DNA of 64,000 nucleotides from Nocardioides sp. GY 10113 (GTDB lineage Bacteria; Actinomycetota; Actinomycetes; Propionibacteriales; Nocardioidaceae): contig NZ_STGK01000004.1 of assembly GCF_004919105.1 (NCBI RefSeq), positions 186,001-250,000 on the forward strand, in the 5' to 3' direction. Under the pieces are notes generated by a model. It saw only the letters and a list, made by a program, of their open reading frames with translations. It ran no database searches and was not told the DNA's origin. The number at the start of each line of letters is the position of its first letter. The first letter of the stretch is position 1. Shown one piece after another: positions 12,146-38,197 of the stretch. The translations under genes and the position numbers were made by a program.

Positions 12146-12150
12146 GCCCG

Positions 12151-21795: not shown

Positions 21796-22751
21796 GCGCG
21801 GCTCCCCGCCCGGACGACCCGACCACGAGCGACCCGACCGTTCCGACGGGCACCGGTCCGCAGCGGCTCCGCGCGCTCCTGGGCGGCACCACGCCCGCGC
21901 GCCTGCCCGGCGTCTTCGACGCGGTCTCCGCGGCGATCGCGGCGGCCGCCGGGGCGCCAGCGGTCTGCCTCTCCGGGGCGACGGTCTCGGCGGTCGACCT
22001 CGGGCTCCCCGACCTCGGCTTCGTGCACGGCACCGACATCGCGCGGCGTGCCGCCTCCCTGCGCGGCCCGCTGGCCGGCGTACCGGTGCTGGCCGACGCC
22101 GACACCGGGTACGGCAACGCGCTGCAGGCCGCGCACACCGCGCGCGAGTACGCCGCCGCCGGGATCGCCGGGCTGCACCTGGAGGACCAGGTCGCGCCGA
22201 AGCGCTGCGGCCACCTCGGCGGCAAGGAGGTGGTCGGCCTCGACGAGGCGGCAGGCCGGGTCCGGGCCGCGGTGGAGGCCGACACCGGACTGGTGGTCGT
22301 GGCCCGCACCGACGCGCTGTCGGTGCTCGGCCGCGAGGCCGTGGTGCAGCGCTGCCGGGCGTTCGCCGAGGCGGGCGCGGACGCGGTCTTCGTGGAGGGC
22401 GCCGGTCTCGGTGACCTGGCCGCGGTGGCCGCGGCGCTGACCGCCGACGGCCGGCCGGTGCCGCAGGTCTACAACCGCTCCGAGGCCGGTGGACCGGTCG
22501 AGGCCGGTCCCGACGACGCGGCGCTGGCCGCGGTCGGCGTCCGGCTGGTGATCCACCCGGTCTCGGCCCTGCTGGCCGCCGCCGCGGCGGTGCGCCGGGC
22601 CGTGGTCGCCGTGCTCGAGGGCGGGCACGCGGCGCCGGTGGAGCGGATCGGGTGGGGCGAGCTGACCGGGCTGGTCGGGCTGCCCGAGCTCCTGGCCGCC
22701 GAGCAGACGTACGCCGCCGCGGGTGCAGGCGCGAGCCACCCGGGCCGATGA
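21792..22751 (+). CDS. Isocitrate lyase/PEP mutase superfamily lyase
   Basis: A 319-residue TIM-barrel enzyme with DADTGYGN (Mg2+ site) and the catalytic loop KRCGHLGGKEVV. The loop and length resemble 2-methylisocitrate lyase, 2,3-dimethylmalate lyase and oxaloacetate hydrolase, so it probably cleaves a C-C bond in a substituted malate to give pyruvate or glyoxylate plus a smaller acid. This suits breakdown of methyl-substituted maleate/malate intermediates. It overlaps the aldehyde dehydrogenase stop by four bases. Confidence 0.85.
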   Translation: MSAAPRPDDPTTSDPTVPTGTGPQRLRALLGGTTPARLPGVFDAVSAAIAAAAGAPAVCLSGATVSAVDLGLPDLGFVHGTDIARRAASLRGPLAGVPVLADADTGYGNALQAAHTAREYAAAGIAGLHLEDQVAPKRCGHLGGKEVVGLDEAAGRVRAAVEADTGLVVVARTDALSVLGREAVVQRCRAFAEAGADAVFVEGAGLGDLAAVAAALTADGRPVPQVYNRSEAGGPVEAGPDDAALAAVGVRLVIHPVSALLAAAAAVRRAVVAVLEGGHAAPVERIGWGELTGLVGLPELLAAEQTYAAAGAGASHPGR

Positions 22752-22779
22752 GGAACGACGAGAGAGACAGGTGCAGGCG

Positions 22780-24030
22780 ATGACGAAGGCAGCCGGCGGT
22801 GCGGTGATCGTGGTGGGCGCGGGCCCGGTGGGGCTGACCGCGGCCCTCGTCCTGGCCCGAGCCGGGGCGAGGGTGACGGTGCTGGAGGCCGGTCCCGGCC
22901 TGGCCGCGGAGTCGCGCGCCTCGACGTTCCACCCGCCGAGCCTGGAGATGCTGGACGAGCTCGGCGTGCTGCCGACGCTCATCGAGCGGGGGATCACCTC
23001 CACGACGTTCCAGTACCGCGACCGGGTGACCGGGCCGATCGCGGAGCTCGACCTGGGCGCCCTGGCCGGCGACACGCCGTACCCGTTCCGGGTGCAGTGC
23101 GAGCAGAGCAAGCTGACGCCGATCCTGCTCGAGGCGCTGCGCGGCCTCGACGGGTTCCGGATCGAGTTCGACCAGCCGGTGGTCGCCGTCGAGCAGGACC
23201 TCGACGCACCCGCCGGGGGAGCGAGCGTGACCACGGCGTCGGGGGAGACCTTCCACGCGGACTGGGTGATCGGTGCCGACGGCGCCAGCTCGGTGGTGCG
23301 CAAGCAGATCGGCGCCGAGTTCGAGGGGATGACCTACCCCGAGCGCTTCCTGGTGGTCTCCACCACCGAGGACCTGACCGCCGCGCTGCCCGGCATCGCC
23401 GCGGTCAACTACGTCTTCGACCCGACCGAGTGGCTGGTGCTGCTGCGCACGCCGGAGCACTGGCGGATCCTCTTCCCGACCGACCCGGACAGCCCGGACG
23501 AGGTCGAGGTCGACCCCGTCCGGGTCCAGCAGCGGCTGGCCGGCGTCGCCGACCTCGGCCGCGAGTGGGCCCTGCTGCACTCCTCGCTCTACCGCGTGCA
23601 CCAGCGGGTCGCGGACCGGTTCCGCGGCGGTCGGGTGCTGCTGGTCGGCGACGCCGCACACGTGAACAACCCGCTCGGCGGGATGGGCATGAACAGCGGC
23701 ATCCACGACGCGGTGCTCTCCGCCGGCGCCCTGGCCGAGCTGCTCGCGGTCGACCCGTCCGACGGACCGGCCGCCGAGGCGGCGCTCGCCCGGCTGGACG
23801 AGGTGCTGGCCGCCCGCCGCGACGTGGCCCGCTCCTACGTCAAGACCATCACCCACGACAACTGGAAGCAGCTGCGCGAGACCGACGAGACGGCGCGCGC
23901 CGCGCACCACGCCGAGCTCCGGGCGCTGGCCGCGGACCCGGACGCGCACCGCCGGCACCTGCTGCGGACCTCGATGATCGACTCGCTGCGGCCGGGCCGC
24001 GAGCCAGTGCTCGACGGGGCCGGGGCGTGA
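22780..24030 (+). CDS. FAD-dependent aromatic-ring-type monooxygenase
   Basis: A 416-residue group A flavoprotein monooxygenase (p-hydroxybenzoate hydroxylase fold). The three FAD motifs are present: GAGPVGLTAALVLARAG near the N-terminus, VIGADGASSVVRKQIG, and VLLVGDAAHVNNPLGGMGMN. It uses NAD(P)H and O2 to hydroxylate an electron-rich ring. ATG 22780 is chosen; a GTG at 22771 with a purine-rich site before it is possible. Flanked by a lyase and an aldehyde dehydrogenase in the same operon. Confidence 0.87.
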   Translation: MTKAAGGAVIVVGAGPVGLTAALVLARAGARVTVLEAGPGLAAESRASTFHPPSLEMLDELGVLPTLIERGITSTTFQYRDRVTGPIAELDLGALAGDTPYPFRVQCEQSKLTPILLEALRGLDGFRIEFDQPVVAVEQDLDAPAGGASVTTASGETFHADWVIGADGASSVVRKQIGAEFEGMTYPERFLVVSTTEDLTAALPGIAAVNYVFDPTEWLVLLRTPEHWRILFPTDPDSPDEVEVDPVRVQQRLAGVADLGREWALLHSSLYRVHQRVADRFRGGRVLLVGDAAHVNNPLGGMGMNSGIHDAVLSAGALAELLAVDPSDGPAAEAALARLDEVLAARRDVARSYVKTITHDNWKQLRETDETARAAHHAELRALAADPDAHRRHLLRTSMIDSLRPGREPVLDGAGA

Positions 24031-25544
24031 CCAGCGCCCCACCGACCAGCCCCGTGACCAGCCCACCGACCAGCCCCGTGACGAGCACCGTGACCGGCGC
24101 CGTGACCAGCGTTCGGGAGAACCCGGCCCGCACCGACGAGGTCGTCGGCGTGGTCCAGCACCACGACGAGGCCGCGGTCGACGCGACGGTGCGCGAGGCC
24201 GATGCCGCGCAGCGCGCGTGGGCCGCCCGGGCGCCGCAGGAGCGGGCGCACCTCGTGGCCGCGGCCGCGGACGCGCTCGAGCCGACCCTCGACGACCTGG
24301 CCCGGCTGGTCGCCCGGGAGACGGGGAAGCCGCTCGCCGACTCGCGCGGCGAGGTGGGTTTCGCGACCACCGTCCTGCGCTGGTACGCCGAACGCGGACC
24401 GTCGCTGCTGGCCGACCGCGTCGAGGACGACGAGCGGGGCCGCCTGGTCGTGCGGCGGCGTCCCTACGGCGTGGTCGGCGCGGTCACGCCCTGGAACGCG
24501 CCGGTGATCCTCGCCGCGCTGAAGGTCGCGCCGGCGCTGGTCGCGGGCAACGCCGTGGTGGTCAAGCCCTCGCCGCTGGCGCCGTTCGGCGTGGAGCGGA
24601 TGCTGGCCACGATGGCGACCGCCCTCCCGGAGCCGGTGCTGCGGGTGGTGCACGGAGACGCTCCGACCGCGACGGCGCTGGTCGGCCATCCCGACGTGCG
24701 TCGCGTCGCCTTCACCGGCGGCGAAGGCGCCGGACGCGCGATCGCCGGCCTGGCCGGCCGTTCGCTGACGCCGAGCGTGCTGGAGCTGGGCGGCAACGAC
24801 CCGGCCGTGCTGCTCGAGGACGCCGACCTGGACGACGCCGCCTACGAGCGGCTGCTGATGGCGGCGTTCGCGACCAGCGGCCAGGTCTGCATGGCGGTCA
24901 AGCGGCTCTACGTCCCGTCCGCCCGGCTGGGTGAGGTGGTCGAGGGGCTGCGGGCCGCGGCGGGCCGGGTGCTGCGCGTCGGGGACCCGCTGGCGCCGGG
25001 CGTCAGCATGGGGCCGGTGGTGACCGCCGCGTCCGCTCGCCGGGTCGAGGGCCTGGTCGCCGACGCGGTCGCGGCCGGCGCGACCAGCGTGCCGCTGGGC
25101 ACCGTCGACCCGGGCACCGACCTGTCCCGGGGCCACTTCGTGGCGCCGGTGCTGCTCACCGGCGTCGCCGAGGAGGCGCCGGTGGTCGCAGCCGAGCAGT
25201 TCGGGCCGGTGCTGCCGGTGCTCGGCTACGACGGCATCGAGGAGGCGATCGCCCGCGCCAACGCCGGCGAGCTCGGGCTGGGCGCCTCGGTGTGGTCGGC
25301 CGACGAGGAGCGCGCGTTCGCCGTCGCGGCCCGTCTGGAGGCCGGGTTCACCTTCGTCAACACCCACAACCGCACCGGGATGGCGCTGCGGGCGCCGTTC
25401 GGCGGCATCAAGCGCTCGGGGTGGGGCCGGGAGTACGGCGACGAGGGGCTGGCCGAGTACGTGCAGGACTGCGTGGTGCACGCGCCGGGCGCCTTCCGGG
25501 CCGGCGGCGCGGGGCTGGCCGCGGCGGCGTACCCGACGGGTTGA
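24027..25544 (+). CDS. Aldehyde dehydrogenase family protein, second copy
   Basis: A 505-residue aldehyde/semialdehyde dehydrogenase with ELGGNDPAVL and catalytic Cys in SGQVCMAVKRLYV; FTGGEGAGRAI holds the cofactor-binding region. The GTG start at 24027 overlaps the monooxygenase stop. The first 35 residues are a low-complexity Thr/Ser/Pro/Val segment encoded by imperfect 24-base repeats, so translation could instead begin further in, at the GTG near 24102. Last gene of the operon that starts at 17694. Confidence 0.85.
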   Translation: MTSAPPTSPVTSPPTSPVTSTVTGAVTSVRENPARTDEVVGVVQHHDEAAVDATVREADAAQRAWAARAPQERAHLVAAAADALEPTLDDLARLVARETGKPLADSRGEVGFATTVLRWYAERGPSLLADRVEDDERGRLVVRRRPYGVVGAVTPWNAPVILAALKVAPALVAGNAVVVKPSPLAPFGVERMLATMATALPEPVLRVVHGDAPTATALVGHPDVRRVAFTGGEGAGRAIAGLAGRSLTPSVLELGGNDPAVLLEDADLDDAAYERLLMAAFATSGQVCMAVKRLYVPSARLGEVVEGLRAAAGRVLRVGDPLAPGVSMGPVVTAASARRVEGLVADAVAAGATSVPLGTVDPGTDLSRGHFVAPVLLTGVAEEAPVVAAEQFGPVLPVLGYDGIEEAIARANAGELGLGASVWSADEERAFAVAARLEAGFTFVNTHNRTGMALRAPFGGIKRSGWGREYGDEGLAEYVQDCVVHAPGAFRAGGAGLAAAAYPTG

Positions 25545-25581: not shown

Positions 25582-25594
25582 TAGATAGAATATA
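25582..25594. promoter_or_regulatory. Regulon operator f (TAGAT-AGA-ATATA)
   Basis: A divergent copy of the repeat in the promoter of the RCCR/Rieske operon. TATATT at 25591-25596 would serve as -10 box; AGGAGGAAG and the ATG at 25626 follow. Confidence 0.6.
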
Positions 25595-25625
25595 TTTTGT
25601 CCGTTGAGCCAGGAGGAAGAGTCGG

Positions 25626-26450
25626 ATGAGCCAGAACCTGAAGTCGGTCCAGGAGTACTTCGACGAAGCCGGCCCGACCGACGTCACGTCGCTGTTCGCG
25701 GACTGGAAGGCCCTCGTCGACCGGCTCGCCACGCGGGTCAAGGACCGCTTCGAGCTGCAGCGTGACCCCTCCACCGATGCGCTGGAGTCGTTCACCTCGG
25801 AGGCCGGCCCGTCCGGCAGCGTGCGTGCCTACACCGGCCCCGAGATCGACTGGATGATCCACTCGCACATGGAGAGCGCGGCCATGGGCTTCGTCAACGT
25901 GCACCTGACGATCTGGCTCGGTCCGCAGGTCCGCGTGCCGCACTTCGGGATGGCGCTCGGCGCCTTCCCGCAGGGCTGGATGTTCCTGGACTCCGTGCCG
26001 CGCTCGAACCTGATCACCGACACCGACTCGTTCGACCGCTACTACGGTCCGCTCAACGACGAGTGGGAGCAGATCCAGGCGGAGAACGACTTCATCCAGC
26101 CCTTCGTCAGCCGCAGCGCCTTCGTCCGCGCCAGCCTGTCGCCGACGGCGTACTGCTTCATGGCGCCCGGCGACGGCCGGACCACCGAGCTGGTCAGCGG
26201 CATCGCCGAGCGCCACCTCGACCGCTGGCTCCAGTGGGTCGACGAGGCCGAGCGGGTGCCGGCCGACGAGCAGGCCGCGCTCGCCGCGCAGGACGAGCTG
26301 AGCCGGCGCAACATCGCCGAGCGCGACCCCGCCAACGAGATGGGCGAGCGGTTCTTCGGGACCGAGATGACCCAGCAGCTGGTCCGTGCCCTGTGGGGCG
26401 GCGACCGCGTGCTGCCGCGTCCGCACCTGCTCGGGGACGCCTCGTCCTGA
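25626..26450 (+). CDS. Red chlorophyll catabolite reductase (RCCR)-like protein 1
   Basis: A 274-residue protein that I place in the RCCR/ferredoxin-dependent bilin reductase fold. It aligns with plant RCCR (ACD2) through most of its length: NVHLTIWLGPQVRVPHF, LDSVPRSNLITDTDSFDRYY (121-140; plant LDLPHRKDLVLNPDYLKEYY), SRSAFVRASLSPTA (162-175; plant SPSLFVRSAFSPTA), and the tail SRRNIAERDPANEMGERFFG (plant RRKSIEDDLDLQFPRMFG). The plant enzyme reduces a linear tetrapyrrole double bond using ferredoxin. First gene of the operon after AGGAGGAAG. Family membership is from memory, not a search; the substrate is inferred. Confidence 0.72.
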   Translation: MSQNLKSVQEYFDEAGPTDVTSLFADWKALVDRLATRVKDRFELQRDPSTDALESFTSEAGPSGSVRAYTGPEIDWMIHSHMESAAMGFVNVHLTIWLGPQVRVPHFGMALGAFPQGWMFLDSVPRSNLITDTDSFDRYYGPLNDEWEQIQAENDFIQPFVSRSAFVRASLSPTAYCFMAPGDGRTTELVSGIAERHLDRWLQWVDEAERVPADEQAALAAQDELSRRNIAERDPANEMGERFFGTEMTQQLVRALWGGDRVLPRPHLLGDASS

Positions 26451-27466
26451 TGTCCGGATCCACCCTGGTCGACGCCGCGCCGCTGGTCCGCACCCACCGG
26501 ATCGCGGTGCGGGTCCCGGGCGCCGAGGCGCCCTACGACACCGCCCACGTGACGGTGCGGTACCCGGCGCTGCCGGCCGAGACCGACGTCGAGCGGATGA
26601 GCGGGATGCTGCGCCCCGACGCCTCGGGCGCGCCGTACCCGGTCGTGGTCGTGCTGCCCGGCATCAACGTCGCCTCCACCGGCTACCTCGACCTCGCCGT
26701 GGCGCTCGCGCGCCGCGGGATCGTCGCGGTGACCTTCGACTGGGTGGGTCAGCTCTTCCCGGGCCAGGTCGGGCTGACGCCCGGCGTCGACCTGGCCGCG
26801 GTCGGGCCGGACAGCTACGGCTCCGCGCCGACCACGCCCGCGCTGCGCCCCCTGCTCGACGCGCTCGCCGACGCGCACCGCGGGGGACCGCTGGAGGGGC
26901 TCCTCGACCTGGACCGGGTCGGCCTCTTCGGGCACTCCGCGGGCGGCACCGTCGCGCTGCAGTCGGCCGGACCGGAGTGGTTCCCCGAGATCCGCGCGGT
27001 CGCCACCTACGGGGCGCACACCATGGCCTCCCAGCAGCTCGGCTTCCCGCCGGCCACCCTGCTCGCGGCGCCGGTCGTGGCGCCGGTGATGCTCGTCGCC
27101 GGCTCCGCCGACGGGGTGGTCGCGGCCAGCGCCATCCGGTACGGCGAGGAGGCCGGCGCGCCGGGCCACGACCCGGTCGAGCGGACCTGGTCCGAGGCGC
27201 TGCCCGCCGCGACCGAGGCCTGGTTGGTCAGGCTGTGTGACGCGGGTCATATGCTGCCCGCTGCCCCCGATGATCCGACCTCGGCACGCGGATTCCTCGA
27301 GGCGCCTCCCGGAGCGGATGCGGAGCATCTGCGCCGGGTGCTGATCGACCTCCTGGTCACCTTCTTCGCGGCGCGGCTCAGTGACGACGCCGCGGCCGAG
27401 GCCGACCTCTCTGCCCTCACCGACCCCGACCACCGACCCGAGATCGCCGACGCGCGGCGACGCTAG
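26450..27466 (+). CDS. Alpha/beta hydrolase, chlorophyllase/esterase-like
   Basis: A 338-residue hydrolase. PYPVVVVLPGIN is the oxyanion strand, the nucleophile is S163 in LFGHSAGG, and the probable Asp and His lie in AGSADGVV and CDAGHMLP. The overall layout (a chlorophyllase/dienelactone-hydrolase-like core with YPVVVVLPG and GHSxGG) is compatible with an esterase that removes phytol or a methyl group, which the operon context would suggest. Start ATG shares one base with the preceding stop. Any other ester or amide hydrolase role remains possible. Confidence 0.7.
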   Translation: MSGSTLVDAAPLVRTHRIAVRVPGAEAPYDTAHVTVRYPALPAETDVERMSGMLRPDASGAPYPVVVVLPGINVASTGYLDLAVALARRGIVAVTFDWVGQLFPGQVGLTPGVDLAAVGPDSYGSAPTTPALRPLLDALADAHRGGPLEGLLDLDRVGLFGHSAGGTVALQSAGPEWFPEIRAVATYGAHTMASQQLGFPPATLLAAPVVAPVMLVAGSADGVVAASAIRYGEEAGAPGHDPVERTWSEALPAATEAWLVRLCDAGHMLPAAPDDPTSARGFLEAPPGADAEHLRRVLIDLLVTFFAARLSDDAAAEADLSALTDPDHRPEIADARRR

Positions 27467-27474
27467 GAGCCCCC

Positions 27475-28755
27475 ATGTTCAAGAACTTCTGGTACGCCGT
27501 CGAGTTCAGCAAGGACCTCGAGGCCGGCAAGCCCAAGAAGGTCAAGGTCCTCGGCCAGCAGCTCGTGCTCTACCGCAAGGGCAGCGACGGCTCCGTGGTC
27601 GCGATGTCCGACCTGTGCGTCCACCGCGGCGCCGAGCTGTCGGCCGGCAAGGTCAAGGGCGACTGCATCGTCTGCCCGTACCACGGCTGGGAGTACACCC
27701 CCGACGGCGTGGTGCAGAAGATCCCTGCCCACCCGGACAAGGGGATCCCGCGCAAGGCGCGGATCGACTCCTACCCGGTGATGGAGAAGCACATGTTCAT
27801 CTGGGTGTACCTGGGTGACCTGCCGGAGGAGGAGCGGCCGCCGATCCCGGACTGGTCCGAGATCGACGACACCGAGAACTACCGCGCGGTGACCGGCGAG
27901 TTCCTGTGGCACTCGAACTACGAGCGGATCCTGGAGAACGGCGTCGACGTCGCGCACACGCCGTTCGTGCACGGCGGGGTCTTCGGCAACCCGGAGAAGC
28001 CCGAGGTCCCCGACTTCGAGATCGAGGAGTCCGACTGGCACTGCAAGGTGTCGATCGTGCTCAACCCGCCGAAGTCGAAGGGCTTGTGGGGCCTGCTCAC
28101 CCGCGGCGACAAGGCCGACCTGGCGAACCGCCCGCCGGTGCCCGTCTCGACCACCTGGTGGCTGCCGAACATGATCCTGCTCGACGTCGGCACCCCGATG
28201 GGCGCGATGAAGATCTTCGACGTCAACATCCCGATCGACGAGGAGACCACGCTGGTCAAGTTCGTCGCGCTGCGCTCGTTCTTCAAGGGCGCCTGGGCCG
28301 ACCGGGACGCCCTCCGCCGGGTCTACAAGGTGCTGCACCAGGACCGGGCGATCGTCGACGGCGTGCGCCCCGAGCTGCTGCCGTTCGACCTCTCCGCCGA
28401 GCTGCACGTGAAGAGCGACTACAACGCCGTGAAGTACCGCCGCCGGCGCCAGGAGCTGATCGAGGCCGGCTGGAGCGTCGCGGACAACACGATCGTCGGC
28501 GAGGGGCCCGCCCGGGTCGAGGCACGGGTGATCCCGTCCCCGACCCGCAAGGAGGTCCCCGAGCTGGCCAGCGCGTGGAACTTCAAGGAGGCCCGGAGCC
28601 GCGAGATCCTCGCCGGCCGCGGCGAGCTGCCGACGAGCGCGAAGAAGCAGCGCCGGCTGGTCATGGACGACCCCGCGCCCGCGGAGCAGGAGCCGAAGGT
28701 CGGCGAGAACGGCGCCGCGGCACCGTCCGCAGCCGGCGAGGAGGTGACCGCATGA
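27475..28755 (+). CDS. Rieske non-haem iron oxygenase, oxygenase subunit
   Basis: A 426-residue ring-oxygenase. The Rieske [2Fe-2S] ligands are C48, H50, C67 and H70 (CVHRG and CPYHGWEY); the mononuclear iron ligands fit N155-x2-D158-x2-H161-x4-H166 (ENGVDVAHTPFVH). It acts with a reductase and ferredoxin, neither of which is in the window. Plant pheophorbide a oxygenase, which opens the chlorin ring, is a Rieske enzyme; this protein lacks its C-terminal membrane anchor and CxxC, so it would be a soluble analogue. It lies between two RCCR-like genes, eight bases after the hydrolase. Substrate inferred. Confidence 0.85.
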   Translation: MFKNFWYAVEFSKDLEAGKPKKVKVLGQQLVLYRKGSDGSVVAMSDLCVHRGAELSAGKVKGDCIVCPYHGWEYTPDGVVQKIPAHPDKGIPRKARIDSYPVMEKHMFIWVYLGDLPEEERPPIPDWSEIDDTENYRAVTGEFLWHSNYERILENGVDVAHTPFVHGGVFGNPEKPEVPDFEIEESDWHCKVSIVLNPPKSKGLWGLLTRGDKADLANRPPVPVSTTWWLPNMILLDVGTPMGAMKIFDVNIPIDEETTLVKFVALRSFFKGAWADRDALRRVYKVLHQDRAIVDGVRPELLPFDLSAELHVKSDYNAVKYRRRRQELIEAGWSVADNTIVGEGPARVEARVIPSPTRKEVPELASAWNFKEARSREILAGRGELPTSAKKQRRLVMDDPAPAEQEPKVGENGAAAPSAAGEEVTA

Positions 28756-29504
28756 GCCTGCCCGGAGGTCTGTGCAACCGCACGCTGGACACGATCGTCG
28801 AGCGCGCCGGGCTGGCCGAGGTCACCAGTGACGACGGCGGACCGTTCCGCACCCTGGTCTCGGTGATGGGGCCCGACCCGGTCGGGGCGGTCCGCGTCTT
28901 CACCGGCGACCCGGACGCCAACCAGGTCGCCAAGGCCGTGTACGTCGGCATCACCGTGCCGCAGATCGGGCTCGACAGCCACATGGTCTTCGCGTTCGCC
29001 GACGAGTCGGCGCCGATCCCGCACTTCACGCTGGACTCGGTGAGCGCCCACGGTTACTTCGCGTTCCACCTGGACCTGATCCAGCGCGCCGACCTCGGCA
29101 CGCACCTGACCTACCTGGACTGGGCGCACACGCCGCTGACCGCGACCTTCGAGGAGGTCCAGCAGCGCGAGGGCCTGTCGAAGGCCGCCATCGGTCCCCG
29201 TCAGGCCTCGGTGATGTCGCCGTGGATGTGCGTGGCACGGGCCACCGAGGAGGCCTTCGCCGGCATCGAGGACGCCGTGGCGGCGTACCTGGGGCACTGG
29301 TTCTCGCTGGTCGAGGCGCCGGTCCCGGCCGAGGTGACCGCGGACCTCGCCGACACCGACCTGGCGGCGCGCGACGAGCGCAACCGCTCCATCCTGTTCA
29401 GCCCCGACGTGGACAAGGTCTGGGCCCAGATCAGCCAGCTGCTCGGCCCCGAGGTCACCGAGGGCATCCGTGCGCAGCTGCTCAGCAACGAGGTGAAGGC
29501 ATGA
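28752..29504 (+). CDS. RCCR-like protein 2 (divergent)
   Basis: A 250-residue paralogue of the RCCR-like proteins at 25626 and 43973, more divergent. Shared landmarks are PIPHFTLD (88-95), the LIQRADLGTHLTYLDW stretch (110-125) matching the VPRxDLxTDxxYLxRYY block, SPWMCVARATEEA (156-168), and the C-terminal ARDERNRSILFSPDVDKVWA and LLGPEV. It overlaps the Rieske stop by four bases, so the two are translated together. It could be a second bilin reductase acting on a later intermediate, or a partner subunit. Confidence 0.65.
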   Translation: MSLPGGLCNRTLDTIVERAGLAEVTSDDGGPFRTLVSVMGPDPVGAVRVFTGDPDANQVAKAVYVGITVPQIGLDSHMVFAFADESAPIPHFTLDSVSAHGYFAFHLDLIQRADLGTHLTYLDWAHTPLTATFEEVQQREGLSKAAIGPRQASVMSPWMCVARATEEAFAGIEDAVAAYLGHWFSLVEAPVPAEVTADLADTDLAARDERNRSILFSPDVDKVWAQISQLLGPEVTEGIRAQLLSNEVKA

Positions 29505-30484
29505 CCGCGACCCAGGAGACGGGCGCCGACCAGCAGGCCGCCGAGACCAGCGAGTGGCAGAAGAGGATCGCGGGGGAGTGGCACGGCCGTCCCGGCCTCT
29601 TCGACGCCCAGGGCAACCACGTCGGCTTCGAGCGCGTGGACCGGGCCAGCGTCGTCGAGGACGGCGTCGCCCGCTACTGGATGAACACCACCCTCGAGGG
29701 CGGCGGCCCGCTGCGGAACCGGCTCGAGCTCGGTGCGCACTTCGACTTCGGCATCGTCGACTCCGACCAGAACCGGGTCTACTGCGGCCCCGACTTCTAC
29801 GGCACCGGCCAGCCCTACGGGCTCTTCGTCGACGCCAACTACTACTCCCCGGGCTGGCAGGCCGACCTGCGCACCTGGAACCAGGTGCTGCCCGACGGCA
29901 ACACCCAGGTCTACTCCTCGGTGCTGTACGACGGCTGGTCGGTCTGCGCGGTCTTCAACGGCGTCTACCAGCGCACGTTCGACCACGCCACCAACCCGGC
30001 GACGCAGCAGTTCGTCGAGGACTGGATCGCGCTGGAGACCAGCCGCGGGGCGCGGCCGCAGGTGCTGCCCACCAAGGAGGCCGGCGCCTGGCGCGGCACC
30101 CTCTTCGTCAACCCCGTCGACCAGTCCGAGGGCGGCGAGGTCGAGGTGACCATCGAGCACCAGCCGCTCGACCTGCGTCGCGCCCGCCAGCAGGTCACCT
30201 GGAGCGGGGCGCTGGACCGCAGCTACGGCTTCCAGCGCTACCGCGACGGTGCGCGCACCCAGTACGAGGGCCCCGAGGTCTTCGGCAACGCCCAGTCCTT
30301 CGGCCGCGCCCTGTTCACCACCCAGCACCTGGTCGGCCCCGACGCCACCGGGGTGGAGAAGATCCGCGGCCGGGAGTTCCTGATCGACGCCGACAACCGT
30401 GACCTGGCGATCGTCTGGCAGCTGATGAGCGGCGACGCCACCACCCACTTCGTGCACGGCGCCCTCACCTGGGAGAGCGCGTGA
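29501..30484 (+). CDS. Protein of unknown function, lipocalin-like beta-rich
   Basis: A 327-residue soluble protein rich in aromatic residues and beta-strand patterns (EWHGRPGLFDAQGNHVGF, ARYWMNTTLEGG, NRVYCGPDFYGTGQPYGLF, YDGWSVCAVFNGVY). The repeating W-x-G strands suggest two calycin/lipocalin-like barrels (as in DUF3598 or CpcS-type chromophore-binding proteins), but I do not recognise the family. No signal peptide. Coupled by four-base overlaps to the RCCR-like gene before it and the NOL-like dehydrogenase after it, so it should act in the same step or bind the same chromophore. Confidence 0.72.
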   Translation: MTATQETGADQQAAETSEWQKRIAGEWHGRPGLFDAQGNHVGFERVDRASVVEDGVARYWMNTTLEGGGPLRNRLELGAHFDFGIVDSDQNRVYCGPDFYGTGQPYGLFVDANYYSPGWQADLRTWNQVLPDGNTQVYSSVLYDGWSVCAVFNGVYQRTFDHATNPATQQFVEDWIALETSRGARPQVLPTKEAGAWRGTLFVNPVDQSEGGEVEVTIEHQPLDLRRARQQVTWSGALDRSYGFQRYRDGARTQYEGPEVFGNAQSFGRALFTTQHLVGPDATGVEKIRGREFLIDADNRDLAIVWQLMSGDATTHFVHGALTWESA

Positions 30485-31305
30485 GCGCCAGCGCCCCGGG
30501 ATCCGGACGGGTCGTCGTCGTCACCGGCGGCACCCGCGGCATCGGGCTCGGCCTGGCGCGGGAGTTCCTCGCCCGCGGCTGCCGGGTGGCCCTCTGCGGC
30601 CGCTCCGCCGAGGCGGTGGAGAAGGCGCTCGCCGAGCTCGGTGCTGGCGACCGGTGCACCGGGCTGGCCACCGACGTCGGCGACCGGTCGGCCGTGCAGG
30701 CGCTGTGGGACCACGCCGTGGCGACCTTCGGCCGGGTCGACGTGTGGGTCAACAACGCGGGCCTCTCCGCGCCGCGCGGGGCGCTCGCCGAGCAGCCGGA
30801 GGAGACCGTCGAGGCGGTGCTGCGCACCAACGTCCTCGGCGCCTACAACGGCTCGGCCGTGGCGCAGGCGGGCATGGCCGCCCAGCCCGGCGGAGGCTGG
30901 ATCTGGAACATGGAGGGCTTCGGCTCGCGCGGTGAGCACCAGCCCGGCATGGCGACGTACGGCGCCTCCAAGCGGGCGGTCAACTACCTGACGGAGGCGC
31001 TGGTCCGCGACGTGAAGGGCACGCCGGTCAAGGTCGGCTTCCTCTCGCCCGGCATCGTCGCCACCGACCTGCTGGTCGGCGACTACGACGGGCGTCCCGA
31101 GGAGTTCGAGAAGGTCAGGAGGATCTTCAACATCCTCGGCGACCGGGTCGAGACGGTGACCCCGTGGCTGGCCGACGGCGTGCTCGCTGCCGGCAAGAAC
31201 GGGGCCCGCGTCGCCTGGCTGACCAAGCCCAAGGCGATGGGGCGGTTCATGACCGCCGGCTTCAGGAAGCGCGACATCTTCGCCGACGAGGAGGGATCCC
31301 GCTGA
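30481..31305 (+). CDS. Short-chain dehydrogenase resembling chlorophyll b reductase (NOL/NYC1)
   Basis: A 274-residue SDR with cofactor motif TGGTRGIG (15-22), NNAG (91-94) and the YxxxK pair Y160/K164. Features shared with plant NOL/NYC1, not with common SDRs, are WNMEGFGSRG (142-151; plant FNxDGAGSxG), SPGIVATDLLVG, RRIFNILGDRVETV (plant FNIICELPETV), and a C-terminal WLTKPKAMGRFMTAGFRKRDIF. The plant enzymes reduce the 7-formyl group of chlorophyll b. Overlap with the genes on both sides places it in the RCCR/Rieske operon. Its substrate here is inferred. Confidence 0.78.
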   Translation: MSASAPGSGRVVVVTGGTRGIGLGLAREFLARGCRVALCGRSAEAVEKALAELGAGDRCTGLATDVGDRSAVQALWDHAVATFGRVDVWVNNAGLSAPRGALAEQPEETVEAVLRTNVLGAYNGSAVAQAGMAAQPGGGWIWNMEGFGSRGEHQPGMATYGASKRAVNYLTEALVRDVKGTPVKVGFLSPGIVATDLLVGDYDGRPEEFEKVRRIFNILGDRVETVTPWLADGVLAAGKNGARVAWLTKPKAMGRFMTAGFRKRDIFADEEGSR

Positions 31306-31994
31306 TGGCCGTCGACCCGTGCACCGAGTACAACCTCCTGCTCGCCGCCGAGGACTTCGTCCCCGTGATGCTGGCGGGCGCCGGCACCGTGGTGCTGGGC
31401 CTGGCCGCGGGCCGGGCGCTGCCGAGCGTCCGCGTGCCTGCGCTGCTGGCCGGCGCGCTGGTCACCGTCGGCGGTCTGGCCAAGGCGATCTGGAAGCTGC
31501 TGGTCGCCGCCGAGCCGTGCCGGAACTACCCGTTCCTGGAGAACATGCTCTTCCCCTGCCTCGCCTTCGGCTTCGCCGGCATCGCCTGCGCGCTGGTCGG
31601 GGTCCGCAAGGGTCGCCCGGTGGCGTGGTGGCCGTTCCTGGTGCTGCCGGTGCTCGGCTCGGTCGCGGCCGTGTGGATCTGGGACACCGGGCCGCTGCTG
31701 GCCGTCTCCGCGATCAACGCGGTCCTGATCGGCATCCTCGCGATCGGCATCGCGCTGCGCGAGCAGCACCGCCTCGGCGCGGCGCTGTTCGTGGTCTACA
31801 TCGTCGGCACGCTCGTCCTGCCGCCGCTGGCCGCCCGTCCGAACCAGTCCCTCGAGCTCCAGTGGGCCGAGCAGGCGACCAACACGCTGGTCCAGCTCTG
31901 CTTCCTGCTCGGCGCGTTCGGCCTCCGACGGAGGGTCGGGACGGGCACCACCGAGTCCACCACCACCACTAGCAGGGTAGGAGTCCCCTCGTGA
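31305..31994 (+). CDS. Seven-helix integral membrane protein, unknown function
   Basis: A 229-residue protein with about seven hydrophobic segments, periplasmic-side Cys in PCTEYN (near residue 6) and PCRNYPFLEN (near residue 68), and a short Thr-rich hydrophilic tail. The gene starts within the stop of the NOL-like SDR and ends within the start of the next gene. It might anchor the pathway enzymes or supply a route for a hydrophobic substrate; no family is recognised. Confidence 0.75.
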   Translation: MAVDPCTEYNLLLAAEDFVPVMLAGAGTVVLGLAAGRALPSVRVPALLAGALVTVGGLAKAIWKLLVAAEPCRNYPFLENMLFPCLAFGFAGIACALVGVRKGRPVAWWPFLVLPVLGSVAAVWIWDTGPLLAVSAINAVLIGILAIGIALREQHRLGAALFVVYIVGTLVLPPLAARPNQSLELQWAEQATNTLVQLCFLLGAFGLRRRVGTGTTESTTTTSRVGVPS

Positions 31995-32737
31995 CCGACC
32001 GCCTCGGCTACCGCGCCAAGTTCGGCGTGATCGCCCCGAGCACCAACACCATCGTCCAGCCCGAGTTCGACATGATGCGGGTCCCGGGCGTCACGTCCCA
32101 CTACGGCCGGATCCTGATCCGCGACGGCCGGATCGCCGACGACGAGGGGATGCAGAACCTCCTGGTCCAGATCCGGGCGGCGATGGACGACTGCGTCGAG
32201 AGCGTCATGACCATGGAGCCCGACTACATGGTCATGGGCATGAGCGCCGAGACGTTCTGGGACGGGGTCGAGGGCAACCGCCAGTTCGTCCAGCAGATCA
32301 AGGACCTCTCCGGAGGTCTCGGCGTGGCCACGGGCGCGGAGGCCTGCGAGCGCGCGCTGCACCTGTTCGGCGCGAAGAAGATCGGCATCGTCACGCCGTA
32401 CACCCCGATCGGCGACGAGAACGTCCGCAAGTTCTTCACCGAGCTGGGCTTCGAGGTCGGCAAGATCAAGGGACTCTCGTGCGAGAGCGCGGTCGCCATC
32501 GCCCATGTCAGCGAGGAGACGCTGCGCCAGGCGATCCTCGAGGTCGACGGCCCGGACGTGGACGCCATCGTCCAGTGCGGCACGAACCTCTGCATGACCG
32601 AGCTGGCCGACGAGGCCGAGCGCTGGCTCGGCAAGCCCGTGATCGCGATCAACGCCGCCACCTGGTGGATGGCGCTGCGCGAGAACGGGATCGAGGACAG
32701 GATCCACGGCTACGGCAGCCTGCTGCGCGACCACTGA
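31991..32737 (+). CDS. Asp/Glu racemase superfamily protein, arylmalonate-decarboxylase-like
   Basis: A 248-residue protein starting GTG at 31991. FGVIAPSTNTIVQPEF is the maleate isomerase/arylmalonate decarboxylase N-terminus, and VQCGTNL holds Cys196 at the C-terminal catalytic position. The N-terminal catalytic Cys of the isomerases and racemases is replaced by the GMSAETFW segment, which matches the GTSLSFYRG dioxyanion loop of arylmalonate decarboxylase. A decarboxylase of a malonate or beta-keto-acid-type group, such as the C13-2 carboxyl of a demethylated chlorophyll catabolite, is therefore as likely as a maleate isomerase. Last gene of the operon. Confidence 0.78.
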   Translation: MTDRLGYRAKFGVIAPSTNTIVQPEFDMMRVPGVTSHYGRILIRDGRIADDEGMQNLLVQIRAAMDDCVESVMTMEPDYMVMGMSAETFWDGVEGNRQFVQQIKDLSGGLGVATGAEACERALHLFGAKKIGIVTPYTPIGDENVRKFFTELGFEVGKIKGLSCESAVAIAHVSEETLRQAILEVDGPDVDAIVQCGTNLCMTELADEAERWLGKPVIAINAATWWMALRENGIEDRIHGYGSLLRDH

Positions 32738-32760
32738 CCGCGCGAGCGGGGGCACCACGT

Positions 32761-32840
32761 CCCGCGAGTGGGTAGAAGACGACGTCCGAGTCGGTAGGTA
32801 CGCCTACCGACTCGGACGTCGTCTTCTACCCACTCGCGGG
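32761..32840. terminator. Perfect 38-bp stem palindrome at a convergent junction
   Basis: Bases 32761-32798 pair without a mismatch with 32803-32840, leaving a 4-base loop. The arm contains CGCGAGTGGGTAG and GACGTCCGAGTCGGTAGG, words shared with the palindromes at 13421-13560 and 58377-58412. It lies between the converging operon end (32737) and the small membrane protein gene (32848). It is far longer than an ordinary terminator. Confidence 0.8.
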
Positions 32841-32847
32841 ATGGGGG

Positions 32848-33003
32848 TCAGCCGACGACGACCTGGTCCAGCGGCAGGTGCGGCTCGACCCACGGGAAGA
32901 CGACGTACATCAGCAGCCAGAAGGCCAGCGCCGCGAGTGCCAGCGCCTGGAGCAGCTTGGCGGCGGTGCCGCCGGGCAGGATCCGCCACAGGAACGCGTA
33001 CAT
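32848..33003 (-). CDS. Small membrane protein of the sortase locus
   Basis: A 51-residue protein, MYAFLWRILPGG followed by one hydrophobic helix and the ending FPWVEPHLPLDQVVVG. Small proteins with this MYxxLWR...FPWVxPxLP pattern accompany class E sortase genes in many actinobacteria. The start ATG overlaps the sortase stop by four bases. Too short for ordinary ORF filters, but the pattern and coupling support it. Confidence 0.8.
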   Translation of the reverse strand: MYAFLWRILPGGTAAKLLQALALAALAFWLLMYVVFPWVEPHLPLDQVVVG

Positions 33004-33689
33004 CAGGACTCCTCTCCGGCCGCGAGGTCGAGTCCCTCGGGCGGTCCGGCGCCGGGGGCGCGGGTCTCGACGAGCTGGGCGCCCACCACCAGCCGCTCGG
33101 TGGAGCCCCAGCGCGGGTTGCAGGTGACCAGGGTGAGGGTGTGCTCGGTGGGCTCCTTGCCGGGGTGGCCGGCGACGGGCTCGAGCACCTCGACCGCGGT
33201 CGGCGCGACGATCCGGCTCCACGTCACCTCGTAGGTGAACCAGCCGTCGGTGGTCTCGACGTAGATCTCGTCGCCCTCGACCACCCGGTCGAGCTCGGCG
33301 AACGGCTCGCCGTGGGTGGCGCGGTGGCCGGCGACGGCGAAGTTCCCGATCTCGCCGGGCAGGGCGGTGCCGGGGAAGTGGCCGGGGCCGTCGTCGATGG
33401 TGTCCATGTCGACGCCCTCCAGCACCACCCAGCGCCAGTCGGCGCCGAGCCGGGGCGCGTAGAGCACGGCGAGGCCGTCGCCGACGTCGGCCTGCGGCGC
33501 GCGGCCGGCCCGCTGGGCCTTCTCGGTCCGGAACTCCTCGAACAGGTCCTGCTGCGCCGCCTCTGTCTGTACGTTCGTCCAGACCAGCAGGTAGAAGACC
33601 AGCAGCGCGAGGACCGCCGCGCCGGTCAGCAGGAGCTCGGAGACGCCGCGCAGCAGTGCGCGAAACGAGAGATTCGACCCGACCGGCAT
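33003..33689 (-). CDS. Class E sortase
   Basis: A 228-residue membrane-anchored transpeptidase that links LPxTG/LAxTG proteins to the cell wall. One N-terminal helix (about 13-37), then the sortase barrel with catalytic H122 (AGHRATHG), C190 (TLVTCNP) and R199 (GSTERL). The start ATG is preceded only seven bases upstream by operator g; with TATATC six bases before the ATG, the mRNA is probably leaderless. Its placement in the regulon, and two LPxTG substrates at 41095 and 41751 in the same regulon, suggest a dedicated sortase. The downstream gene is a small membrane protein. Confidence 0.9.
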   Translation of the reverse strand: MPVGSNLSFRALLRGVSELLLTGAAVLALLVFYLLVWTNVQTEAAQQDLFEEFRTEKAQRAGRAPQADVGDGLAVLYAPRLGADWRWVVLEGVDMDTIDDGPGHFPGTALPGEIGNFAVAGHRATHGEPFAELDRVVEGDEIYVETTDGWFTYEVTWSRIVAPTAVEVLEPVAGHPGKEPTEHTLTLVTCNPRWGSTERLVVGAQLVETRAPGAGPPEGLDLAAGEES

Positions 33690-33695
33690 GTCTTA

Positions 33696-33708
33696 GATAT
33701 ATCATCTA
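33696..33708. promoter_or_regulatory. Regulon operator g (GATAT-ATC-ATCTA)
   Basis: A copy of the repeat between divergent sortase and large surface-protein genes. On the minus strand TATATC (33701-33696) is six bases before the sortase ATG at 33689. Confidence 0.68.
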
Positions 33709-33787
33709 GGAAATGTCTGGTGACTGACTGCTCGCCGTGGGGCAGGCCGGTCGAGTGCGCCGCCCGGGGCGACGCGGAGGTGGTCGG

Positions 33788-36043
33788 ATGGTGAGGTCGC
33801 GCGCTCGCCTCGGAGCCGCTGTCGCGGTGCTGTCGGCAACCCTTCCCGGACTGGTGGCGCCGCCGTCGTACGCGTCCGCCGGCGTGCTCGCCGTGCTCGG
33901 CGTCTCGCTGCGGGCGCCGGCCCCGGCGGTGGCGGTGGACCCGGGCGGCGGCTGTTGGCGCTACGTGCCCGCCCCCGGTGCGGACGTCGGCGAGCCCGCC
34001 GACCCCGCCGCGATCACCGACGTCAGCGCCGCCCTCGAGCCCTGGTCCGCCGCGACGCCCGCGGTGAGCCTGAGCACCGCCGGCGGCACCGCCGTCGGCC
34101 GCGCGCGCAGCTTCGTCCTCGCGATCCCCGGCGGCCCCGTGCTGGTCCCGTCCCTGGCCGCGGACCTCCCGGCCACCACGGCCACGGTCACCGCGCTCCT
34201 CGCGTACGACGGGACGCCGCTGGAGCCGGTCGAGGTCGAGGTCGAGCTCCCGGCCGCCGCTGCGGGCGACGCCGTGGCGCTGGGCGCCGTCGAGCTGACC
34301 GGCAGCCTCCCGATCGCCGCCGCCGGCGCTTCCAGCCTGGTGCTGCGCTCCCTCCACGTCGACCTGCCCGACCTGGCGCTCCGGATCGACTGCAACGGAC
34401 AGGTCGAGGGCACCCCGGCCGGGGTGAACCCGGCGACCGCTCCGGTCGAGACGGCGGTCGTGGCCACCTTCGACGCCGCCGCGTCCAGCGCGGTGGCGGT
34501 CACCGCGGTGGCCGGCCAACCCTCGACCGCGGCCGCTCGGGCGGGTGACACGGTCCGGCTCGCCGGCACCGGCTTCGACGGACTCGGCGAGGCCGAGGTG
34601 ATGCTGTGCCCGATCGGTGCCGGCGAGGACGACGTGGCCGGGGACTGTGTCGCCGCCGGCTCGGTGACCGCCGACGAGGCCGGTGCCTGGAGCACCGGCG
34701 TGACGCTGCCGGAGGCCGCCGACCTCGCGGACGTCGTCGGCGACCGGGCGACCGAGGGCGGTGGCGGACCGATCGCGCTGCGGATCGCCCCCGCCGCGGT
34801 CGAGGACCCGGCCGCGCCGGAGCCGCTCGCGCCGATCATCGTCCGCGTCCGGTTCCTCGGCGAGCCCACGCTCGCGGTCACCGACGAGGAGAAGGGGCGG
34901 CGACCGATCCGGGTCGCGGCCACCGACCTCGACCCCGGACGCTCCGTGCGGCTGCGCGCGCTGGACGCGGGCGGCGAGCCCGTGGGTCGCGCCGTGCGTG
35001 CCACGCCGGGAGCGCGCGGCGGCGTGCGGATCCGGATGCCGCGGCCGGAGGGCGCGACCGAGGTCCGGGCCACCCAGTGGCGGCGCGGTGGACCGCTCGT
35101 GGTGGCGGCCGACCTGCCGACCGCCGAGGTCGCGGACGAGCCGGCCCCGACGCTCCCGCCGGTGCCGGGCGCGCCCGCCGTGGCGCCGCCCGCGGTCGCG
35201 GAGCCGGCGGCCACCGCGGTCGCGCCCCCGGCCGACATCCCCGAGCCCGAGCCGATGCCGATCGACGAGGTCGCGGCGCCCGTGGACCCCGAGTCCGTGC
35301 CGGTCGAGGAGGGGGCGGTGGTGGTCACCGCCGCGGAGCTGGTCGGCTCGGCGACGCTGGCCGACCTGTTCGGCGCCTCGCCGCGCCGGATCCTGCGGCT
35401 CACCGTGGAGAACGTCGGTGACGGCGTGGTCACCGCTCCCGGTCTGGAGATCGCCGTGGGTCGCACCGGCGACGTGGAGCCGATCTACTCCGCCGCCGGG
35501 CTGGGCTCGATCGCTCCGGGGGAGACGCAGCAGGTCGAGGTCCCGATCGCGCTCGGTGTCGGTGCCATCGGCACCTACCAGATCGACGGGCGCCTCGGCG
35601 CCGGCGACGCCGGCTCCTTCAGCCTCACCTGGCAGACCTACCCGTGGGGGCTGATCGGGCTGAACCTGGCGGGCGTCGTCCTGCTGGTGTGGGCCGTCAA
35701 CCGCCGCCTGTCGCGCCGGTCGAGCCCGGTGCTGGCCTCCGCGCTGGCCGCCCCGGCGGCCACAGCCGCCGGGGGAGTCGGGGCGGCCAGCGGTGTGCCG
35801 ACGCGGACGGACGACGCCGTGGTGGACCTGGAGACCCTGGAGCGCTGGTGGGCCCTGCAGGCGGTGCCGGGCGGCCTGGCCGCGGCGGTGGCCGCCGGCG
35901 GCACGTCGGTTGCTCCGGTCCCGGCCCCGCAGGAACCGGGCGGCGCGGTGGTCGACGTCGAGGCCGTCGAACGGTGGCTGGCCGGCCTCCCCGCGCGCCC
36001 GTCGGGCGGTGATCGCGGTGCGGAGCAAGACCCTCGTCTGTGA
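33788..36043 (+). CDS. Large secreted membrane-anchored protein with a C-terminal transmembrane helix
   Basis: A 751-residue protein with a signal peptide (1-33), an extracellular region of Ala/Val-rich beta domains (about 40-470), a Pro/Ala/Glu-rich linker (about 450-510), an Ig-like domain with a family resemblance to NEW3/CARDB (about 530-610), then a TM helix (LIGLNLAGVVLLVWAVN) and a cytoplasmic tail of about 120 residues that ends with two copies of a VDLETLERWW/VDVEAVERWL motif. The tail is odd for a surface protein and may bind an intracellular partner. No LPxTG. ATG at 33788 used; GTG 33791 possible. Diverges from the sortase across operator g. Confidence 0.7.
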   Translation: MVRSRARLGAAVAVLSATLPGLVAPPSYASAGVLAVLGVSLRAPAPAVAVDPGGGCWRYVPAPGADVGEPADPAAITDVSAALEPWSAATPAVSLSTAGGTAVGRARSFVLAIPGGPVLVPSLAADLPATTATVTALLAYDGTPLEPVEVEVELPAAAAGDAVALGAVELTGSLPIAAAGASSLVLRSLHVDLPDLALRIDCNGQVEGTPAGVNPATAPVETAVVATFDAAASSAVAVTAVAGQPSTAAARAGDTVRLAGTGFDGLGEAEVMLCPIGAGEDDVAGDCVAAGSVTADEAGAWSTGVTLPEAADLADVVGDRATEGGGGPIALRIAPAAVEDPAAPEPLAPIIVRVRFLGEPTLAVTDEEKGRRPIRVAATDLDPGRSVRLRALDAGGEPVGRAVRATPGARGGVRIRMPRPEGATEVRATQWRRGGPLVVAADLPTAEVADEPAPTLPPVPGAPAVAPPAVAEPAATAVAPPADIPEPEPMPIDEVAAPVDPESVPVEEGAVVVTAAELVGSATLADLFGASPRRILRLTVENVGDGVVTAPGLEIAVGRTGDVEPIYSAAGLGSIAPGETQQVEVPIALGVGAIGTYQIDGRLGAGDAGSFSLTWQTYPWGLIGLNLAGVVLLVWAVNRRLSRRSSPVLASALAAPAATAAGGVGAASGVPTRTDDAVVDLETLERWWALQAVPGGLAAAVAAGGTSVAPVPAPQEPGGAVVDVEAVERWLAGLPARPSGGDRGAEQDPRL

Positions 36044-36047
36044 AGTA

Positions 36048-36060
36048 GATATCGTATATC
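36048..36060. promoter_or_regulatory. Regulon operator h, perfect GATAT-CGT-ATATC
   Basis: Perfect ten-base match in both half-sites, 31 bases before the ABC transporter binding-protein gene. TATATC overlaps the right half and may be the -10 element; GAGGAGAGGAGG follows. Confidence 0.8.
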
Positions 36061-36090
36061 GTTTGCCGCCGAGGAGAGGAGGCGCCCGGC

Positions 36091-37452: not shown

Positions 37453-37456
37453 GCCG

Positions 37457-38197
37457 ATGAGCGATCGGTCGGCCGCCCTGCAGGTCAGCGGTGTCTGCGC
37501 CTCCTACGGCCCGGTCCAGGTGCTGTTCGGCGTCGACCTGTGCGTGGAGGAGGGCGAGATGGTCGCCCTGCTCGGCCCCAACGGCGTCGGGAAGAGCACC
37601 ACGCTGCGGGTGATCGGCGGCCTGCTCAGCGCGGACCGGGGCAGCGTGCACCTCGGCGGCGCCGACGCCACGTCCTGGACGCCGCGCAAGCGGGTCGAGG
37701 CCGGCCTCAGCCAGGTGGTCGGCCAGTCCGCGTTCGGGTCCCTGACCGTGGTGGAGAACCTGACCATGCACGGGTACGCCGCCGCGGACCGCCGGTGGGT
37801 CCGCGAGGCCGTCGAGGCGGCGCTGATGATCTTCCCGCGCCTCAACGCGCGGCGGAACCAGCCCGCGGCGACGCTGTCGGGCGGCGAGCGGCAGATGCTG
37901 GCGCTGGCCAAGGCGATCGTCAACGACCCCCGGCTGCTGGTCATCGACGAGTTCTCGCTCGGTCTCGCCCCGGTCGTGGTCGGCGGCCTGATGGAGCTGG
38001 TGCGCCGGCTCAACGAGCGCGGCACCTCGGTGCTGCTGGTGGAGCAGTCGGTCAACGTGGCGCTCTCCCTGGTGCACCGCGCCTACGTGATGGAGAAGGG
38101 CGAGATCATCGCCGAGGAGTCGGCCGCGGTGCTCGCCGCCGACCCGGACCGGGTGCGCGGCCTGATGCTCGGCGGACACGTGGCGGAGGCCGGATGA
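37457..38197 (+). CDS. livF: ABC transporter ATPase, LivF type
   Basis: A 246-residue ATPase with Walker A GPNGVGKST (40-48), signature LSGGERQM and Walker B LLVIDEFSLGL. The length and VVENLTM/YAAADR features place it with LivF-like branched-chain transport ATPases. Starts five bases after the binding protein and overlaps the permease fusion by four bases. It is the partner of the ATPase domain in that fusion. Confidence 0.88.
   Translation: MSDRSAALQVSGVCASYGPVQVLFGVDLCVEEGEMVALLGPNGVGKSTTLRVIGGLLSADRGSVHLGGADATSWTPRKRVEAGLSQVVGQSAFGSLTVVENLTMHGYAAADRRWVREAVEAALMIFPRLNARRNQPAATLSGGERQMLALAKAIVNDPRLLVIDEFSLGLAPVVVGGLMELVRRLNERGTSVLLVEQSVNVALSLVHRAYVMEKGEIIAEESAAVLAADPDRVRGLMLGGHVAEAG

Follow-up and report, generated by a model that had tools for sequence, protein, structure and literature searches.

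A conserved actinobacterial gene island with RCCR-fold proteins and a Rieske oxygenase, a candidate system for uptake and degradation of a tetrapyrrole pigment

Introduction

Chlorophyll reaches soil and sediment in very large amounts every year. In plants, it is processed by the PaO (pheophorbide a oxygenase)/phyllobilin pathway, which combines proteins of the red chlorophyll catabolite reductase (RCCR) family with a Rieske oxygenase and alpha/beta hydrolases. The same combination is found in an operon of eight genes, A to H (25626 to 32737, plus strand), in Nocardioides sp. GY 10113. The operon lies in a 64,000-nucleotide stretch of DNA (assembly GCF_004919105.1, contig NZ_STGK01000004.1, positions 186,001 to 250,000), referred to here as the window, and forms the core of a conserved island of genes that extends well beyond the operon. 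We put at roughly 0.5 the probability that this island takes up and degrades a tetrapyrrole pigment as food, the pigment being most likely chlorophyll derived. Unlike the plant pathway, the island is a bacterial operon with an importer and a lower pathway added; its Rieske enzyme is of the VanA type and has no PaO domain, and no chlorophyllase or Mg-dechelatase was recognized.

Other described systems share parts of this gene set. The nicotinate/nicotine lower pathway to maleate likewise employs an FAD monooxygenase, an alpha/beta hydrolase, an isochorismatase-type amidase, and a maleate-isomerase-like protein, but the island adds RCCR-fold proteins and a Rieske oxygenase; no NicX-type dioxygenase was noticed among the proteins scanned here, although no search was aimed at NicX. 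Itaconate/mesaconate degradation of the RipC type resembles the island in its CoA-transferase, mesaconyl-CoA-hydratase-like enzyme, and RipC-like lyase; in the island, however, the RipC match falls below the cut-off, and the corresponding block is near the island in only 10 to 12 of 15 relatives. The ferredoxin-dependent bilin reductases, and the pre-PcyA clusters that heterotrophic bacteria carry, belong to the same superfamily and fold and are also found in nonphotosynthetic bacteria (PMC10151467). Those clusters are reported to carry heme oxygenase, V4R, Fe-S, and globin genes, none of which is among the genes annotated here. RCCR-like bacterial sequences are themselves not new, since the same study groups those of "Candidatus Schekmanbacteria" with the RCCR outgroup (PMC10151467), and some actinobacterial proteins are already named red chlorophyll catabolite reductase in their source records. 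Riboflavin/lumichrome catabolism of Nocardioides simplex was considered and set aside, as it is described with a different gene set (PMC12746152). Among the top matches listed in the open-access literature, no paper described a bacterial RCCR-Rieske cluster, and none described a bacterial gene set for breakdown of the tetrapyrrole ring.

Results

All eight genes proposed in the initial annotation are present on the plus strand at the positions given there. Adjoining ends overlap by 1 or 4 bases at six of the seven junctions, whereas B and C are separated by 8 bases. Directly after H lies a near-perfect inverted repeat (32755 to 32846) with two 44-base arms that are 95% complementary and a 4-base spacer; it is probably a terminator.

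The first gene, A (25626 to 26450), encodes a protein of the RCC_reductase family (Pfam PF06405, 61.1 bits against a cut-off of 24.9). The only other PF06405 match in the genome is P (43973 to 44818, minus strand; 58.0 bits), the third RCCR-like protein that had been claimed, and the alignment of A with P by hhalign covers nearly the full length. A also reaches the Fe_bilin_red model (31.3 bits against a cut-off of 31). As a single sequence, it matched RCCR in the PDB with an E value of 6e-8, and its profile matched Arabidopsis RCCR at 1.8e-12, compared with 3.2e-7 for a plastid bilin reductase. By these sequence comparisons, A is closer to RCCR than to the bilin reductases.

D (28752 to 29504) is more divergent. 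The family-model scan gave no Pfam match, and a profile search of PDB sequences found no RCCR relative, but fold comparison did find one: for a structure model with a predicted local distance difference test (pLDDT) score of 90.9, RCCR was the top structural match, with RCCR and bilin reductases tied. By hhalign, D aligns with A (E 6.6e-9, probability 95.8), while the probability for D and P is only 27.7. The initial annotation had called D RCCR-like and had proposed a check of the RCCR fold; the check places A and P in the RCCR family by sequence and gives D the RCCR/bilin-reductase fold, although no family model finds D. Thus, A, D, and P are three proteins of the RCCR/bilin-reductase superfamily. 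Its solved members in our match lists act on or bind tetrapyrroles, with the exception of an FtsHi-motor subunit.

We compared these proteins at RCCR residues Glu154 and Asp291, which we take to be catalytic; an open-access literature search on the two residues yielded a single paper, on an unrelated subject. The PDB entry for the F218V variant sets the chain offset at 43, by which the Glu in PNFVVEL is residue 154. In D, the Glu154 position is occupied by Asp94 (hhalign), which is kept in 120 of 120 homologues (the best 120 of 1,175); its Asp291 equivalent is ambiguous, as Asp207 and Asp220 are both kept throughout the same set. In A, the Asp291 position corresponds to Asp234, kept in 119 of 120 homologues (the best 120 of 427), and the Glu154 position corresponds to Ala110, which is Ala in all 120. 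In P, the Asp291 position holds Asp244, invariant in 14 P sequences, and the Glu154 position holds Val120 (hhalign).

The arrangement is conserved within the family Nocardioidaceae. Of 341 genomes searched in this family, 25 (this one included) contain PF06405, in every case as exactly two matches, which are convergent and start 17.7 to 26.6 kb apart. For 15 of the remaining 24 carriers (the relatives), stretches of 80 kb were compared. The queried genes from the CoA-transferase at 10961 to R, which ends at 45916, have the same order and strand in all 15 relatives, apart from the genes for the phosphoenolpyruvate (PEP)-mutase-like protein and the FAD monooxygenase, which are in order in 12. 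These counts leave out the first permease piece (37540 to 39200), g01, and W1 (50099 to 50760), which were unreliable queries; the permease piece had been translated in a wrong frame with eight stops. The genes at 45.9 to 54.9 kb, from MaoC to the acyl-CoA dehydrogenase, are near in up to 10 relatives and the RipC-like lyase in 12. The conserved unit is an island much larger than the eight-gene operon of the initial annotation.

A wider scan with one genome per species gave 128 loci, and counts were made on the best 80, ten of which have Nocardioides or Mumia in their titles. Cultured carriers include Nocardioides alcanivorans NGK65, Nocardioides soli DSM 105498, and Mumia quercus NEAU-365. 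In flanks of 10 kb around A, which miss distant genes, we found C and D in 79 loci each, E in 78, and B, F, and the nitrilase g12 in 77 each; H was present in 68, the two aldehyde dehydrogenases (ALDHs) in 64 and 64 (some weak), the FAD monooxygenase in 59, G in 49, the flavin enzyme g15 in 48, and the PEP-mutase-like protein in 24. Near the core, neocarzinostatin-like M was found in 22 loci and the RipC-like lyase in 21 (at least 38% identity and at least half coverage). Locus L153 is the only one of the 80 that lacks C and D. Because the same set and order recur in all 15 relatives, and the set in most of the 80 loci, the grouping is beyond chance. Carrier genera include Streptomyces, Nocardia, Actinomadura, Micromonospora, Actinoplanes, and Catellatospora, and metagenome-assembled genomes of Acidimicrobiia also carry the core. 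In eight Acidimicrobiia/Sva0996 loci, the amidohydrolase-MmgE/PrpD-CoA-transferase block that lies at 59 to 64 kb here also adjoins the core, and H was not found. A itself is rare in the phylum as a whole, with 3 carriers among 396 genomes (this one counted) at E 1e-10.

Outside Nocardioidaceae, 25 of 26 genomes examined hold a single PF06405 match, and for this reason P appears to be a paralogue belonging to the family. The 26th genome has a second match, which at 21.4 bits is below the cut-off; it is 2.4 kb away from A, at the place expected for D. Given this single copy, matches to P outside the family in the 80-locus scan were rejected as cross-matches to A.

A palindrome links several parts of the island. 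The motif was derived from 25-base stretches of at least 64% A+T in the window, where the G+C content over 2 kb is 70 to 79%. There are 11 such stretches, and 10 of them hold GATATNNNATATC with at most two mismatches. At that tolerance the window has 13 matches against 1.02 expected, a number seen in none of 100 shuffles, though the count is circular; three of the 13 are to be dropped, one in coding sequence and two (55800 and 55807) that overlap the perfect site at 55814. Over the whole genome, eight places match with at most one mismatch, and five of these are in the window, which makes up 1.4% of the genome (binomial P 3e-8, partly circular because the window was the source of the motif). 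The 15 relatives played no part in defining the palindrome. The site between g13 and g14 (17660 to 17672, one mismatch) is present in all 15, that between P and Q (44822 to 44834, two mismatches) in 14, that before K (36048 to 36060, perfect) in 12, and that before A (25584 to 25596, two mismatches) in 8; a site also lies within 200 bases upstream of g09 in 11 relatives, of the sortase gene in 3, and of J in 1. The relatives' 1.2 Mb contain 134 sites, 101 of them inside the upstream windows tested, and at least 13 of the 101 are in the coding stretch before G. Matches before G (13 of 15 relatives) were rejected as operators, since they sit in a conserved coding stretch of F. The GntR/FCD protein g13 (16772 to 17485, minus strand) is likely the regulator of the island because its gene adjoins the most constant site, and it may bind the candidate palindrome. 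The island is probably one regulon.

The remaining operon proteins were assigned with differing confidence. C (27475 to 28755) is a Rieske oxygenase with a VanA_C domain by Pfam, as first annotated, and its closest solved relatives are SxtDIOX, SxtT, and NdmA. The PaO domain, PF08417, was found neither in C (Pfam, E up to 1) nor in the whole genome, with a model that matched 2 of 14 controls, 1 above the cut-off; the possibility that C is a PaO orthologue was therefore rejected. B (26450 to 27466), which had been called an esterase-type hydrolase, is an alpha/beta hydrolase closest to polyester hydrolases and lipases (E 1.7e-7), with a GHSAGG motif invariant in 16 sequences, but all of its Pfam matches are below their cut-offs. 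We rejected B as a chlorophyllase (PF07224, 13.6 bits, E 0.029, cut-off 26). The PF07224 model is unspecific, with matches in 11 of 14 controls, and one protein elsewhere in the genome is just above its cut-off (27.4 bits). F (30481 to 31305) matches only generic short-chain dehydrogenase (SDR) models, and its earlier NOL/NYC1 label is unsupported, no NOL/NYC1 sequence having been compared. A second SDR at 58420 to 59229 is 43% identical to F.

No Pfam family matches E (29501 to 30484), even at an E value of 2. The structure model of this protein is all beta except for two helices and most resembles two-barrel calycins, namely BFA1, a DUF3598 protein, and more weakly the CpeS bilin lyase. This agrees with the beta-barrel originally proposed, but the pLDDT is only 49.6, and because the model is poor the calycin fold is a lead only. 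A second E-like protein, with 27 to 28% identity to E, is encoded near the core in Acidimicrobiia loci (L163:14279-15181 and L144:14318-15220). G (31305 to 31994) is hydrophobic and has no Pfam match; from its sequence it is probably a membrane protein. H (31991 to 32737) belongs to the Asp/Glu racemase superfamily and resembles maleate isomerase and arylmalonate decarboxylase. Its resemblance to the latter, noted previously, is supported by PF17645 (64.2 bits, cut-off 25.9); it does not reach the NCBIfam arylmalonate decarboxylase equivalog (57.4 versus 225 bits) and scores 76.8 bits with the EutA model (cut-off 318). The closest solved relative of H is maleate isomerase 2xed, and at 73 to 94% identity in relatives it is among the best-conserved proteins of the island.

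Upstream of the operon, the plus strand encodes the class III CoA-transferase g09 (start approximate) and the isochorismatase-family amidase g10 (together 10961 to 12813), followed by the nitrilase-superfamily amidase g12 (15037 to 16701). Between the cupin-like and major facilitator superfamily genes, overlapping long inverted repeats (13401 to 13579) span 36 to 85 bases with 73 to 83% complementarity. Beyond g13, the plus-strand stretch 17688 to 25544 encodes g14, a flavin reductase with an HMGL-like part; g15, an acyl-CoA-dehydrogenase-like flavoprotein; g16, an ALDH; g17, a PEP-mutase/methylisocitrate-lyase-like protein; g18, an FAD monooxygenase closest to PnpA and HspB; and g19, an ALDH. 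The flavin reductase (17688 to 18992) is in one frame with its C-terminal HMGL-like stretch (36.1 bits, cut-off 29).

Downstream, 33003 to 43043 holds genes for a sortase (33003 to 33689, minus strand), the secreted protein J, K, a branched-chain-type ATP-binding cassette (ABC) importer, the neocarzinostatin-like anchored protein M, and the secreted protein N. K has no Pfam match and is a putative solute-binding protein, judged from position and sequence. The secreted proteins N (41751 to 43043), AB (55818 to 57260), and AC (57526 to 58359) have a common domain without a Pfam match, and there is a palindrome upstream of AB and another upstream of AC. P is adjoined by O (43134 to 43960, minus strand), an NAD-dependent epimerase-like protein kept in all 15 relatives, and by Q (44847 to 45206, plus strand), a small protein 68 to 84% identical in relatives with an ABM match (PF03992) of 21.9 bits, below the cut-off of 23.1. 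The ABM fold takes in IsdG-type heme oxygenases. R (45203 to 45916, plus strand) is an alpha/beta hydrolase of the hydroxynitrile lyase/methylesterase group; a specific assignment as pheophorbidase is unsupported, since "Probable pheophorbidase" 5hk8 ranks 24th of its 30 matches. A CoA-pathway block follows on the plus strand (45913 to 55772), encoding a mesaconyl-CoA-hydratase-like MaoC protein, a luciferase-like protein, a CoA-transferase, MmgE/PrpD, a RidA-like protein, a further MaoC protein, a thiolase, an acyl-CoA dehydrogenase, and the RipC/CitE-like lyase (RipC model, 186 bits, below its cut-off of 375). On the minus strand at 59249 to 64000 are a hydantoinase/allantoinase-like amidohydrolase, MmgE/PrpD, and a class III CoA-transferase cut by the window end. 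The single heme oxygenase of the genome is on another contig. Rfam gave nothing in the window at gathering scores, and ARAGORN found no tRNA there.

Discussion

The conserved surroundings and the shared palindrome support the catabolic part of the pigment-catabolism reading in the initial annotation. Its one-to-one match to plant enzymes does not stand, as C has no PaO domain, B is under the chlorophyllase cut-off, F is an SDR of generic type, and the Glu154 equivalent is missing from A and P. We prefer a chlorophyll origin for the pigment because A is nearer to RCCR, a Rieske oxygenase is encoded alongside, and the one heme oxygenase of the genome is on another contig.

Tetrapyrrole rings oxidize to maleimides. 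We suggest that the pigment would be captured by sortase-anchored surface proteins and the ABC importer, that hydrolases B and R would cleave off ester groups, and that C would use O2 to oxygenate or open the pigment. D, which keeps an acid at the Glu154 position, may then carry out a ferredoxin-dependent reduction of the linear tetrapyrrole, while A and P, with the aligned Asp but not the Glu154 acid, may catalyze another reduction or else hold the pigment, which E may bind. Pyrrole fragments would be oxidized by the flavin monooxygenases and ALDHs, and their amide and imide bonds would be cut by nitrilase, isochorismatase, and hydantoinase-type enzymes. The resulting alkyl-maleate skeletons could be converted to central metabolites by H, the CoA-transferases, MmgE/PrpD, the mesaconyl-CoA-hydratase-like enzyme, and the RipC/CitE-like lyase. 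The assignment of enzymes to steps is our inference. Full breakdown of a pigment with rings that give alkyl-maleimides fits the island because genes for uptake, RCCR-fold proteins, oxygenases, amide cleavage, and mesaconate/itaconate-type CoA-ester metabolism co-occur. The broader proposal, that Actinobacteria hold a complete regulon that mineralizes chlorophyll-derived tetrapyrroles, from surface capture through a non-PaO Rieske enzyme and three RCCR-fold proteins to imide/maleate fragments and central metabolism, is offered tentatively.

Several observations weigh against degradation of a chlorophyll-derived pigment. A and P have no acid at the Glu154 equivalent, C is not of the PaO family, and B, F, and R are all members of broad families. 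No ferredoxin turned up among the proteins scanned, and Staygreen (PF12638, Mg-dechelatase) gave no match, although no control matched either. The site before A itself is present in only 8 of 15 relatives, H and the two-copy PF06405 arrangement are not universal, and the lower-pathway genes vary more in their presence than the core does. The substrate is a prediction from gene content, folds, and conservation.

The island might instead degrade bilins of heme or algal origin (biliverdin, bilirubin, urobilins, or phycobilins), in which case the substrate would already be linear and C would only modify it. The tie between RCCR and bilin reductases in the fold of D is consistent with such a substrate, as are the match of A to Fe_bilin_red, the bilin lyase among the tentative matches of E, and the proximity of C to hydroxylases and demethylases rather than PaO. 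We consider it doubtful, as A is nearer to RCCR and the only heme oxygenase is encoded elsewhere. It is also unlikely that the RCCR fold has been reused and that the island degrades a nontetrapyrrole, such as a heteroaromatic compound, through maleamate- and mesaconate-like steps. The missing Glu154 equivalent in A and P would fit such reuse, g18 is nearest to PnpA and HspB, and g10 and H resemble families of amidases and maleate isomerases that serve in such pathways, but the island has three distinct proteins from a single superfamily linked to tetrapyrroles, and two of the three belong to the core in almost all of the 80 loci. That the role of the core is limited to modifying or detoxifying a pigment, with neighboring catabolic genes serving other substrates, is improbable: C, D, E, and the nitrilase (77 to 79 of 80 loci) are indeed steadier than the PEP-mutase-like (24) and RipC-like (21) proteins, but the palindrome also precedes the importer and CoA-transferase genes, lower-pathway genes adjoin the core in another class, and 10-kb flanks miss distant genes.

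The preferred reading, that the island takes up and degrades a tetrapyrrole pigment, has a practical side, since the island supplies candidate genes, a candidate regulator and candidate operator, and cultured carrier species. If it is true, RCCR-type chemistry would exist outside phototrophs, which would bear on the origin of plant RCCR and the bilin reductases.

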